NCBI GenBank assembly: GCA_018499985.2
Contig: JAHBAT020000007.1
Span: 1-56,939 of the forward strand
DNA: 56,939 nt
Direction of reading: 5' to 3'
Source: Candidatus Moraniibacteriota bacterium
GTDB taxonomy: Bacteria; Patescibacteriota; Minisyncoccia; Moranbacterales; UBA1568
Shown here piece by piece: positions 8,431 through 44,490 of the stretch. The notes beneath the pieces are model-generated. The model worked only from the letters and a program-made list of their open reading frames with translations. It did not search any database and was not told the DNA's origin. Made by a program: the position numbers and the translations under genes. Position 1 is the first letter of the stretch, and the number at the start of each line of letters is the position of its first letter.

Positions 8431-8522
8431 ATGACTCCTTTAGGGGAGGCATTGTGACATTCTATCGGATGAGAAGTTTATGCTCGGTAGCGTAGCGGAC
8501 GGGTAAATCCGATAGGGTCCAC
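8431..8522 (-). mobile_element. Integration scar 1: right-end remnant of an element targeting tRNA-Ala
   Basis: Three parts match, in order, the right end of the 29-kb island at 44374-44490. First, a terminator-like hairpin (8431-8453). Second, a 7-bp stem TATCGGA (8463-8469)/TCCGATA (8508-8514) enclosing a 21-nt block (8469-8489) identical to 44429-44449. Third, a 17-nt copy of the tRNA-Ala 3' end plus its next base (8506-8522). Read on the minus strand it encodes the tail GPYRIYPSATLPSINFSS and a TAA in the hairpin loop, i.e. the end of a recombinase gene whose body is gone. Interpreted as a leftover attachment end after deletion or excision. Confidence 0.75.
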
Positions 8523-8530
8523 ACAATAAC

Positions 8531-8586
8531 TATCAGATGAAAAGTTTGCGCTTGAGCTTTGCTTAGGTAAATCTGATAGGGTCCGC
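8531..8586 (-). mobile_element. Integration scar 2: second attachment-end remnant
   Basis: A more diverged copy of the same structure. The outer stem is TATCAGA (8531-8537)/TCTGATA (8572-8578). The block TGAAAAGTTTGCGCT follows, then an inner 7-bp hairpin CTTGAGC-TTT-GCTTAGG (8551-8567), then GGTAAAT and a tRNA 3'-end-like GATAGGGTCCGC. The minus strand reads DLPKQSSSANFSSD, resembling the tails of the other two copies. Stem differences from scar 1 are compensated on both strands. Confidence 0.65.
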
Positions 8587-15402: not shown

Positions 15403-15479
15403 GGACCGGTAGCTCAGCTGGTTAGAGCGCTCGCCTGTCACGCGAGAGGTCGCGGGTTCGAATCCCGTCCGGTCCGCCA
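15403..15479 (+). tRNA. tRNA-Asp (GTC) with encoded CCA
   Basis: Acceptor GGACCGG/CCGGTCC, anticodon GTC in CTCGC/GCGAG, T-arm CGGG-TTCGAAT-CCCG, discriminator G and encoded CCA at 15477-15479. It is the only tRNA in the window with encoded CCA. The 3' end is the left attachment core of the island, and the CCA appears to come from the element. Confidence 0.97.
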
Positions 15480-17000
15480 TTCGGTACAAGCAGTCCCAAA
15501 AGGGGCTGTTTTTGTTTTAGTAGATACCCCTAAGGGTGGTTCGAAGGTGCCCATTTTGGCCGTTACGCTTTCTACATCTTCTTGGAGCCATGAAAAAGGC
15601 TCATTGAGGTTAAAGTAAGCGATATTTCGGTCTTGAATAGCAAAGTTCGAAGATATGAGACCGGCTACCTCTCGACGGAGGTGCGGATCAGCATTTTGGA
15701 AAATATCGTGAGCACTTTTTACAAAATGAATAATCTGATCGAGGTCAGCCAGTACACTCTCTGATTTCTTGGCTCTGCCCGTGAGACGTTCTTCGAGCGT
15801 GCTTTCTTCTTTGGTTATCTCGCTCAGTTTCTTTTCATAGATACTCTTCGGGATAGAATTGTCGATGTATTTCTCAATCAAAGAATCTTTGCGGATAGCT
15901 ACTTCACTAAGAAGCTTCTTCACTTCTTCTTTCGATGTGCTCTCGTGTTCTTCTAGGTGGAGATACTTTTCTTTGGCAGCGTCTACGATGAGTTCAAGTA
16001 CCTCATCATCAAACTGAATCTTCTTGAGCTCCTCTTCTATCTTCTCTGTCAGTATCTCCTCTCGGAGGTAGGGCTGTGAGCATGCTTTAGTGCCACGTGA
16101 CTTCGTACAGCGGTAGTACGTGTGACCCTTGCTCGTCTCTGCTGTTATCTTTAGCCCACACTCTCCGCAAAGAGCGAGGCCACGAAAGAGAAAGAAATGA
16201 TCATCGGCTCGGGTGAGCTGTTGGCTGGCAGGGGCGAGGCTTTTTCTAGCTTCCTCGAAAAGCGACTTTGATACAAGGGGAGTGTGCACTCCTTTGTGGA
16301 CTTCACCATTCCATTCAAAGAGTCCGCAGTAGAGCGGGTTAGAAAGTATGCGTTGTAGTCTCGCATGATTAACCTTCTTCCCTCGTACAGAGCGAAAGCC
16401 ATCCTCGTAGAGCTTGTCAGATATCTTTCGTATCGACCACCGCTTGGTGGCGTAGAGTTGGAAAGCCTCGCGGATGTAGGGGGCAATCTTTGGATCAATC
16501 TTGAGAAACTTCGTTTTGGGGTCAATGGTATATCCCAAGACATGATTGCCTGGATATTCTCCGCGTCTCACTTTAGCAGCGAGGCCTCGCTTTACATTGT
16601 TACTCAGGTCTCGTACGTACTGATTAGCAATACTAAACTCAATGCTCGCTATCACTACATTATCTTCTGGATTGTAGTCTCTATCAAACGTCTTGATGCG
16701 TTTGATGGTGTTGTTCTGAAGAAGCCACTTGATAGCTCCCTCGTCTACTGGGTTACGAGCGAGGCGGTCAATCTTCCAGCAGAGTATTCCTTCTGCTTTG
16801 CCTTGTTCGATATATTTCATCATCTCGGCAAAGACAGGGCGGCCTGGGGCTTTGGCAGATTTGGCCTCTTGAAAAACTTTCACCACGTCGAGCTTCTCTC
16901 GCTTGGCTATTTCTTCCATCTCTATAATCTGTGATTGGATAGACAAAGACTGTCTGTCTTCACTCTCACTCGATTTTCTGGCGTAGATAATATACCTCAT
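15438..17000 (-). CDS. Large serine recombinase (probable integrase) whose end is antisense tRNA-Asp
   Basis: 520 residues in the integrated form. The N-terminal resolvase domain begins MRYIIYARKSSESEDRQSLS with the catalytic Ser in RKSSE, then DRLARN. A recombinase domain follows (about residues 165-260), then a zinc ribbon (CGECGLKI...YYRCTKSRGTKAC) and a long coiled coil (about 340-440). The final residues WRTGRDSNPRPLA and the TGA stop are encoded by the antisense strand of tRNA-Asp. In the predicted circle the frame would instead continue LPGIQAEWIPSINFSS to a TGA at 44394-44396, giving about 539 residues. Its position at attL points to a role in integration and excision. Confidence 0.9.
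   Translation of the reverse strand: MRYIIYARKSSESEDRQSLSIQSQIIEMEEIAKREKLDVVKVFQEAKSAKAPGRPVFAEMMKYIEQGKAEGILCWKIDRLARNPVDEGAIKWLLQNNTIKRIKTFDRDYNPEDNVVIASIEFSIANQYVRDLSNNVKRGLAAKVRRGEYPGNHVLGYTIDPKTKFLKIDPKIAPYIREAFQLYATKRWSIRKISDKLYEDGFRSVRGKKVNHARLQRILSNPLYCGLFEWNGEVHKGVHTPLVSKSLFEEARKSLAPASQQLTRADDHFFLFRGLALCGECGLKITAETSKGHTYYRCTKSRGTKACSQPYLREEILTEKIEEELKKIQFDDEVLELIVDAAKEKYLHLEEHESTSKEEVKKLLSEVAIRKDSLIEKYIDNSIPKSIYEKKLSEITKEESTLEERLTGRAKKSESVLADLDQIIHFVKSAHDIFQNADPHLRREVAGLISSNFAIQDRNIAYFNLNEPFSWLQEDVESVTAKMGTFEPPLGVSTKTKTAPFGTACTEWRTGRDSNPRPLA
15461..15477. repeat. Left attachment core (attL)
   Basis: 17-nt sequence aatcccgtccggtccgc covering the T-stem 3' strand, acceptor 3' strand and discriminator of tRNA-Asp. 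It is repeated exactly, in the same orientation, at 44474-44490. Confidence 0.8.
15491..15516 (+). terminator. Terminator after tRNA-Asp, supplied by the element
   Basis: CAGTCCC-AAAA-GGGGCTG then TTTTTGTTTT, starting 12 bases after the tRNA. It lies inside the recombinase coding region on the opposite strand, so the element brings its own stop signal for tRNA transcription. Confidence 0.75.
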
Positions 17001-35073: not shown

Positions 35074-36393
35074 TCATCTTTTTAGGGTTATTTGCTTATT
35101 GGCTAGATATATTCTGCTTTTCAAACATCCAAGAATTTCTCTTTTTTCTTCATTTGAGCCTTCTTTGAGTACATACTTCGCATATCCTCGAATATCAACA
35201 CCTTTTGCATCCACCTTATCTTTTGTCCCTAGAAAGAATTTCTCCATTTTAGAGAATCTTTCTATATCCTCTGAAATTTTTGATTTTAGTTCTATTTCAT
35301 TTAGATTAATCTTATCTAAAAGTTCTTCGAATTGTCTGAGAATCTCCTTTTCTTCGGTATAACCACACTTACACTGTTTATCTCTAGCTTTAGTACAACC
35401 ATAATAAATATATCTTTGAACGGAGCCATTTTTAAGTTTCTTAAATTTCTCATCAGCACATATACCTGACTCACAGAGTCCGCAGGTCATCATTTTGGTA
35501 AAAGCGAATTCTTTACCTTCAACTCGGAGTATCTGGCTTTTTACTTGTCTTTGAACCTGATCAAAAAGTTCTTTGGTAATGATTGGTTCATGCTTACCTG
35601 TATACCAATTACCAGAGTTCTTTGGATATTCAAATACACCGTAATAGAAAGTGCTTTCTAGGATTCTATAGATATTTCCTAAGCTTAGATGCTTTTTGCC
35701 ATTCGCAGTTCTAAAATTAAGTTCAAAGGTAAGCCAGTTATGTAGCTTTCTGCCACTCCATTGTTCATAGGCGACTTTTTCAAACATCTTTTTAATGACA
35801 GGGGCTCTTTCTGGATCAATAAGAGTTTCACATTTTCGATCCATCCTTTTTTCCTTCATGTAACCAGTGGGGGCTGGGTTAGGCCAGAGACCCATTTCTA
35901 CTCTAGTCCGAAGTCCTCGTTTAACATTAATACTCTTATTGTCATTTTCAAGTTTGGCCTGACTACAGAGAATCATAAGAAGAAACTTCTCATTAGGGGA
36001 GTTTTTGAATATCTGTCCGTAAGTACGTATCTCCATTAAGTGTTGCTGATCCATCAAATCTACGACACTTCCTAAATCTCCTGCATTACGAGAGAGGCGG
36101 TCAGGAGCCCAGGTGAGAATGCCGTTAAATCTGCCCCTTCTGATATCTTCTAGTATTTCTTTGTAGACTGGACGCTGACCTGACTCCTTAGCACTATGAG
36201 ACTCCCTTCTGATCTCAACTATTTCAAGGTCATCTCGTTCAGCTTGCTGAAGCATCTCTTTGATTTGAGAATCAATAGAAAGGACTTGTCGCTCTTCAGA
36301 TTCGGTTGATTTTCGGGCGTAGAGGACGTACCTGATCTTTTGGATAGGTTGGACTATCTCGTCACCAATTCGGGCTGTTGTGTGCGTTTCCAT
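35074..36393 (-). CDS. Second large serine recombinase
   Basis: 439 residues from ATG 36393 (a TTG at 36417 is possible). Resolvase domain RYVLYARKSTESEERQVLSI with catalytic Ser in RKSTE and DRLSRNAGDLG; recombinase domain (GLWPNPAPTGYMKEKRM, GRKLHNWLTFEL, STFYYGVFEY); zinc ribbon CGLCESGICADE...YYGCTKARDKQCKCG; shorter C-terminal coiled coil than the recombinase at the left end. Its stop is a normal one, not in a tRNA. It stands between the switch-leader gene and the packaging genes, and may be the integrase of a nested element or act as an accessory recombinase. Confidence 0.92.
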   Translation of the reverse strand: METHTTARIGDEIVQPIQKIRYVLYARKSTESEERQVLSIDSQIKEMLQQAERDDLEIVEIRRESHSAKESGQRPVYKEILEDIRRGRFNGILTWAPDRLSRNAGDLGSVVDLMDQQHLMEIRTYGQIFKNSPNEKFLLMILCSQAKLENDNKSINVKRGLRTRVEMGLWPNPAPTGYMKEKRMDRKCETLIDPERAPVIKKMFEKVAYEQWSGRKLHNWLTFELNFRTANGKKHLSLGNIYRILESTFYYGVFEYPKNSGNWYTGKHEPIITKELFDQVQRQVKSQILRVEGKEFAFTKMMTCGLCESGICADEKFKKLKNGSVQRYIYYGCTKARDKQCKCGYTEEKEILRQFEELLDKINLNEIELKSKISEDIERFSKMEKFFLGTKDKVDAKGVDIRGYAKYVLKEGSNEEKREILGCLKSRIYLANKQITLKR

Positions 36394-36479
36394 GTATCTA
36401 TTGATGACGCACTTCAATAGATTTGCTAAGTCTATGCAAAAACAGTGATTTATCGCATAATAGCACTTTGAAAAAAAGG

Positions 36480-44242: not shown

Positions 44243-44373
44243 TATGAGCCTGTCTTGTGTAACTTTTATCACTTTTTTAGTGTGCACGAGACGCGTCGAA
44301 ACGGGTATTGAAATTACACTAAAATCTCCTTACAGGGCTTGATTTCTTTTGGTTCTAACACGAGACGGCCCGC

Positions 44374-44414
44374 AAAGTAAAGAACGACATCCATCAGGGT
44401 GTCGTTTTTACTTT
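44374..44414. terminator. Bidirectional terminator at the right end of the island
   Basis: AAAGTAAA (44374-44381) and ACGACATCC (44384-44392) pair with GGGTGTCGT (44397-44405) and TTTACTTT around the loop ATCA. In the excised circle the recombinase frame would end with TGA exactly in this loop. The same arrangement, stop codon in a hairpin loop, is seen in scar 1. Confidence 0.8.
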
Positions 44415-44422
44415 TTGTTTCA

Positions 44423-44490
44423 GACGGGATGAGAAGTTTATGCTCGGTATCCATTCGGCCTGGATACCGGGTAAATCCCGTCCGGTCCGC
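44423..44490. repeat. Right attachment region (attR) with T-arm-mimic stem
   Basis: Outer stem GACGGGA (44423-44429)/TCCCGTC (44476-44482), inner 11-bp hairpin (44443-44453/44461-44471), then the 17-nt core 44474-44490 identical to the tRNA-Asp 3' end at 15461-15477. The outer stem copies the tRNA-Asp T-stem; the two scars after tRNA-Ala carry the same layout with the Ala sequence. Confidence 0.8.

Follow-up and report, generated by a model that had tools for sequence, protein, structure and literature searches.

A probable serine recombinase element at the 3' end of a tRNA-Asp gene, and a separate tRNA-tail hairpin unit at its far side

The window (the whole stretch of 56,939 nucleotides that was analysed) probably carries an element of about 28.9 kb (~15478-44373), put at the extreme 3' end of a tRNA-Asp gene by its own large serine recombinase, and the predicted LPGIQAEWIPSINFSS tail of this enzyme would not be made; we give this reading a probability of roughly 0.7. 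The LPGIQAEWIPSINFSS tail belongs, judging by the family that it falls into, to an independent tRNA-linked hairpin unit conserved as nucleic acid and not as protein, since the frame of the unit's loop is not kept and its arm matches whichever tRNA is upstream. The features concerned are the following.

8464-8522, plus strand: hairpin unit behind tRNA-Ala, arm ATCGGA / TCCGAT; taken as a first scar in the sequence-only reading
8532-8586, plus strand: the second of the hairpin units that follow tRNA-Ala, with a joint change of arm and core, ATCAGA / TCTGAT
15403-15479, plus strand: tRNA-Asp (gtc), integration target, T-loop GTTCGAA 21 nt from the junction
15438-17000, minus strand: large serine recombinase, 520 aa (Resolvase, Recombinase, Zn_ribbon_recom)
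15474-15477, plus strand: CCGC, the tRNA end common to the proposed right junction; left attachment site
15478-15522, plus strand: attP right arm, at the left end of the element; terminator hairpin for the tRNA, CAGTCCCAAAAGGGGCTGTTTTTGTTTT
35074-36417, minus strand: second, shorter serine recombinase in the island, beside a terminase-like gene
44352-44373, plus strand: proposed true right junction, GTTCTAACACGAGACGGC-CCGC; free-form tail AVSC*; spacing 21, usual 26
44374-44420, plus strand: tRNA trailer and terminator hairpin, displaced from tRNA-Asp; the same layout stands directly behind tRNAs elsewhere
44423-44490, plus strand: tRNA-tail hairpin unit, source of the SINFSS reading, with arm GACGGGA (44423-44429), motif GTTTATGC...GGGTAAATC (44436-44477) and a copy of the tRNA-Asp 3' end (44474-44490)

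The recombinase has a Resolvase N-terminal domain, a Recombinase domain and a zinc ribbon, each scoring above its Pfam cut-off, which makes it a large serine recombinase. In the integrated state its 520 residues end in TEWR-TGRDSNPRPLA (also written ...RTGRDSNPRPLA), the final 11 residues (TGRDSNPRPLA) and the stop codon being encoded by the antisense strand of tRNA-Asp. The antisense of 15478-15522 is the TKTKTAPFG stretch of the recombinase, and terminators akin to the hairpin of this arm occur in relatives. Conservation of the recombinase drops well before the tail. A 17-bp core, AATCCCGTCCGGTCCGC, is present in exactly two copies (15461-15477 and 44474-44490), and in a hypothetical join of 44473 to 15461 the frame would run to 539 aa, with the tail RTGRD-LPGIQAEWIPSINFSSRLKQKVKTTP and a stop at 44394-44396. 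Translation thus bears out what the sequence-only reading had said of the frames, namely that the gene crosses the 17-bp core to end with SNPRPLA in tRNA-Asp and that passage through the second core copy adds a 26-residue tail up to the TGA at 44394-44396. By our own calculation about 0.29 open runs of 26 codons are expected by chance, so the run is unremarkable alone.

The overlap of gene and target is directly observed across the family. Of 78 related loci, 74 have a recombinase ORF that extends into the tRNA (stopping inside it in 54 and beyond it in 20); these loci are not independent events, as the proteins are related and share ancestry, and all the genomes compared are assemblies, many of them metagenomic. 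The loci involve 17 tRNA types, and the reading phases of the recombinase relative to the tRNA are distributed 60:8:10 (in an initial set of 29 loci the split was 27 to 2, between two phases). The positions of antisense stops in the tRNAs were rejected as the source of this preference, all phases being similar in that respect. Since the 3' end of the gene overlaps that of the tRNA, the C-terminus of the recombinase must differ between the integrated and the excised form. The state-dependent C-terminus put forward in the sequence-only reading consequently stands as a family-wide ORF/tRNA overlap, while its SINFSS tail for the window does not, the proposed circle having probably used the wrong right end.

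The ends of the relatives' elements are chimeric junctions, likewise directly observed, in which a non-tRNA arm is followed by the last 4-6 nt of the tRNA and then by the tRNA's trailer and terminator. GTTCKAA, or a close form of it, lies 26 nt from the tRNA-derived end in 11 of the relatives' 15 arms (21 nt in the window), and its tRNA counterpart is the T-loop GTTCGAA, at 21 nt. In serine integrases the motif bound by the zinc domain is reported to be displaced outwards by 5 bp in attP relative to attB (PMC3783163); because the 26 and 21 nt of the relatives reproduce this displacement, the T-loop is probably the attB recognition motif of these recombinases, and GTTCKAA at 26 nt could serve as a rule for locating element ends at tRNA genes. 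The family thus resembles the large serine integrases of the phiC31, A118/LI and Bxb1 type in its three domains and, among the relatives, in the outward shift of the attP motif by 5 bp (PMC3783163), and differs from them in targeting the 3' ends of at least 17 tRNA types, with the T-loop apparently serving as the motif, and in the antisense run of the gene into the tRNA at 74 of 78 loci. Free-form tails predicted from the junctions (AVSC in the window; unrelated tails of 10-37 residues in G007, G031, G004 and G055) have no common sequence. In two genomes (G004 and G009; L231 and L232) the tRNA-Asp trailers encode 28 residues like the recombinase C-terminus and are probable remnants of lost elements.

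In the window the 3' end of the tRNA is restored and a second chromosomal junction is present, as expected of a tRNA-targeting element; we infer its exact right end, which more likely lies at 44370-44373 than at 44490. The sequence-only reading had made 44474-44490 the attachment site of the recombinase, which we could not confirm: these nucleotides are judged not to be a recombinase site because the GTTCKAA motif of the recombinase arms is absent from the unit, and the junction that shares features with related elements lies ~100 bp earlier, at 44352-44373. This arm has GCTTGATTTCT..GTTCTA in common with an arm of G017, where it stands beside similar copper genes. The displaced trailer at 44374-44420 is supported by the same logic at a Clostridia locus, in which a different element of 9 kb stands between a tRNA and the 3' half, terminator and unit displaced from it. 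Several points speak against 44373: (i) the GTTCTAA of the right junction lies at 21 nt and not at 26, which is atypical, and may be decayed or come from another element of a composite island; (ii) the sequence shared with the left end is only 4 bp (8 with one mismatch), compared with 17 bp at 44474; and (iii) core length varies among the recombinases, G004 having a 15-nt copy of the tRNA end. The downstream gene was uninformative as a synteny anchor, and no close relative of the element was found in virus, phage and plasmid collections.

We propose that integration at the tRNA end follows the usual rules of serine integrases and that the last residues of the recombinase would be whatever follows the crossover. 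The gene ends in the attachment arm and continues antisense into the tRNA, which gives the integrated form 11 tRNA-encoded residues; upon excision these would be swapped for the coding of the other arm, a short and presumably functionless AVSC if the right end is 44373. The hairpin unit and the tRNA terminator would have sat behind tRNA-Asp before the arrival of the element and now be 29 kb away from it, and an element-free tRNA-Asp would continue with AAAGTAAAGAACGACATCC and then with the hairpin unit. The cargo of the island (19743-44222) comprises an SNF2-like helicase with an Eco57I-type methylase (restriction-like), copper-type ATPase, DsbD-like and cupredoxin genes, and then a phage-like part in which a terminase and a methylase accompany the second serine recombinase.

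One plan is common to the unit at 44423-44490 and the two tRNA-Ala scars: an arm, GTTTATGC-variable loop-GGGTAAATC (with slight divergence in the second tRNA-Ala scar) and a tRNA 3'-end copy. In each the arm is complementary to the adjoining tRNA-end copy (GACGGGA/TCCCGTC for Asp, ATCGGA/TCCGAT for Ala, ATCAGA/TCTGAT for the second Ala unit). The unit behind tRNA-Ala does read LPSINFSS in one frame, as had been noted before; the letters common to the SINFSS-type readings are the DNA motif GATGAGAAGTTTATGCTCGG within the hairpin. The genome of the window holds 5 exact copies of the unit and none of a reversed control pattern. Units were found in 14 of 131 genomes of the order, and a scan of the collection yielded 96 stretches; these come from many Patescibacteria and from Clostridia of gut and rumen, along with a few strays that are perhaps chance matches. 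Viral contigs gave no match to the unit motif. Most units lie 14-70 nt behind a tRNA, usually past its terminator, and a recombinase of the window's family is near them in only 3 of 80 loci. The covariation of arm and tRNA is directly observed: pairing between arm and own tRNA-end copy amounts to 136 pairs, compared with 99 ± 6 after shuffling, in 22 units, and to 614 of 945 pairs, compared with 464 ± 11, in a larger set of 105 units. A mere copy of the T-stem was rejected as an explanation of the arm, which beyond the T-stem is the complement of the tRNA end and not a copy of it. In most of the units for which a fold was computed, a bulge of ~10-11 nt on one side accompanies a lower and an upper stem. 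Loops are alike within a genome despite different tRNAs (mean distance 4.9, compared with 8.0 ± 0.6 upon permutation), which suggests that units pass from one tRNA gene to another and that their arm is fitted anew to each.

This apparently undescribed family of tRNA-tail hairpins, ~55-70 nt long and often in tandem, with an arm that matches the 3' end of the local tRNA, is exemplified by 8464-8586 and 44423-44490 of the window and by L072, L075, L076, L085, L143, L147 and L157. Longer units of ~120-150 nt, GGGATGAGGAAAGCGGAGCGA...GACCGAATCCC, with the same arm-and-core plan, are found behind tRNA-Asp and other tRNAs (L238, L241, L250, L233; L076 1290-1414), and versions of ~190 nt behind two different tRNAs (L143 and L147). 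In G017 (L045-L046) two elements in tandem have at their ends an exact duplication of a 461-bp segment that comprises trailer, hairpin unit and flanking DNA. The units recall the attC sites of integrons in that their outer arms pair, a bulge is left unpaired, the tip varies and copies form tandem arrays; unlike attC sites, they stand without a neighbouring integron integrase (IntI type) and have no GTTRRRY / RYYYAAC boxes, their ends being tRNA 3'-end sequence and their motif GTTTATGC...GGGTAAATC. The search for a known RNA family gave no Rfam match, no recurrent neighbouring gene or mobile gene was found near the units, and a link to tyrosine recombinases was not apparent, Phage_integrase being absent from the window's genome and mostly present once per relative. 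Our literature search on tRNA-linked serine recombinases or integrons in Patescibacteria returned nothing relevant. Short duplicated tRNA ends, then, are not always attachment sites; many apparently belong to this separate repeat.

A conserved second tail was encountered in a sister group of the recombinases, mostly at tRNA-Ser. There, the start codon of the recombinase is closely preceded by a complete inverted attP, the right arm of which duplicates ~120 bp of the gene's own 3' end; the left arm duplicates the far end of the element, over 207-222 bp in the two elements measured. A search blind to the tail found the inverted arm at 19 of the 78 loci, with an exact match over 20 nt at 18, and found none at the window's own recombinase. 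Loci with an inverted attP, L014, L015, L316, L318, L320 and L321 among them, have arms of 120-220 bp and two opposed attP per element. The frame leaving the core reads RCxLDxVRxYFxxNP*, with the stop after 16-20 codons in 9 of 9 members of one subgroup. Single-base codon differences in the tail frame are 96 synonymous and 102 nonsynonymous, compared with 37/121 and 52/133 in the other frames, the third-position excess alone being marginal (p ~0.05). VRT is partly a product of the DNA motif, the tail beyond it is not, and selection likely acts on this second tail. The RCxLDxVRxYFxxNP tail was found on no recombinase ORF of the first set of loci; in a further set, a related tail (CAFEKIRTDFA...) is present on the recombinases of G410 and G422, with no tRNA at the 3' end, and in G410 this looks like the second element of a tandem. 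The recombinase of G279 (L322 / L404 4017-5477) is reversed with respect to its relatives, in the order tRNA, right arm, start codon; the contig ends inside the recombinase gene, and the tail falls outside the assembled sequence. Contigs break inside the recombinase gene in several members of the tRNA-Ser group, which could reflect mixed orientations. We put forward, tentatively and as the less probable case, that in this group integration and inversion set the C-terminus, tRNA-encoded when parked and RCxLDxVRxYFxxNP* when free, flipped or in tandem, so that the enzyme would sense both integration state and orientation; this could in turn set its activity, stability or direction.

Three other accounts of the window have to be weighed. 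According to the first reading of this DNA, excision joins 44473 to 15478 and a conserved 26-residue SINFSS tail changes the direction of the enzyme. The exact 17-bp core repeat, the open frame and the similar reading behind tRNA-Ala are in its favour; the units, however, occur without recombinases and their arm covaries with the tRNA, 44474-44490 is without GTTCKAA, and 26 open codons arise by chance at ~29%. Conservation of SINFSS as a protein tail, which that reading had claimed, was rejected on the evidence of the units: the core-to-motif distance differs modulo 3 between the two copies, and among 113 distinct units loop lengths modulo 3 are 29/38/46, with a stop in the window's frame in 44. 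The hairpin unit as an attR of the recombinase was rejected too, such units lying directly behind tRNAs without a recombinase and without GTTCKAA. We regard this account as very improbable. A decayed or composite element, its true left arm lost or inside the island and neither 44373 nor 44490 a working end, is unlikely though considerably less so. It would agree with the junction spacing of 21 instead of 26, the second recombinase and terminase-like genes inside the island, the right arm held in common with the copper-gene element of G017, which has a different recombinase, and the tandem elements at one tRNA in G004; yet the right junction restores a normal tRNA trailer, its arm is common to another genome, and the search within the island revealed no arm that combines spacing 26 with an exact CCGC end.

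The third account bears on what the changing C-terminus does: family-wide, it may be a passive by-product of an attachment site that overlaps the gene end, the tail doing nothing. This is a serious contender, although we would put it somewhat short of even odds. The free-form tails of the window, G007, G004 and G055 range from 4 to 37 residues and resemble one another in neither sequence nor length, the conservation of the recombinase declines well before the tail, and VRT may follow from DNA motif, spacing and phase; on the other hand, the 60:8:10 phase distribution over 78 loci and 17 tRNA species is unexplained by stop positions, and the tail of the tRNA-Ser group is conserved as protein with a nearby stop in frame. 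In the window itself, to judge from its sequence, the C-terminal change looks passive. A tail is not needed to explain directionality, since the arm layout, on our analysis, already fits the known account of a zinc-domain shift (PMC3783163).

A precedent for a C-terminus altered by integration is mycobacteriophage BPs, where attP lies inside an ORF, integration alters the C-terminus of the repressor and the phage form has a degradation tag, as experimentally shown (PMC4557955). The window resembles BPs in having attP within an ORF whose product's C-terminus is altered by integration, and differs in that the product is a recombinase instead of a repressor and that the change is read from DNA. 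An alternative tail conserved as protein is found in the sister tRNA-Ser group and not in the SINFSS tail of the window; a state-dependent C-terminus acting as a switch could thus apply to related enzymes, the only ones with a conserved second ending. Another report describes a directionality factor fused to a serine integrase, in which the attached polypeptide altered directionality (PMC5737554); that fusion is an engineered one, whereas the tails here are natural and of 4 to 37 residues.

In Patescibacteria, tRNA-targeting recombinases of this kind nearly always overlap their target gene, with a near-universal T-loop as the apparent recognition motif, and one branch has a conserved second C-terminus that would be readable only when the gene is not parked in a tRNA. 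Should this tail affect activity, a recombinase could by this means sense its own integration. Apart from the recombinases, a group I intron (RF00028, E 7e-12) interrupts a tRNA gene in the window's own genome (L076 964-1161), and a weaker RF00028 match, below the gathering score, lies in G049 at the tRNA-like sequence that a recombinase targets (L004 3064-3307, minus strand).
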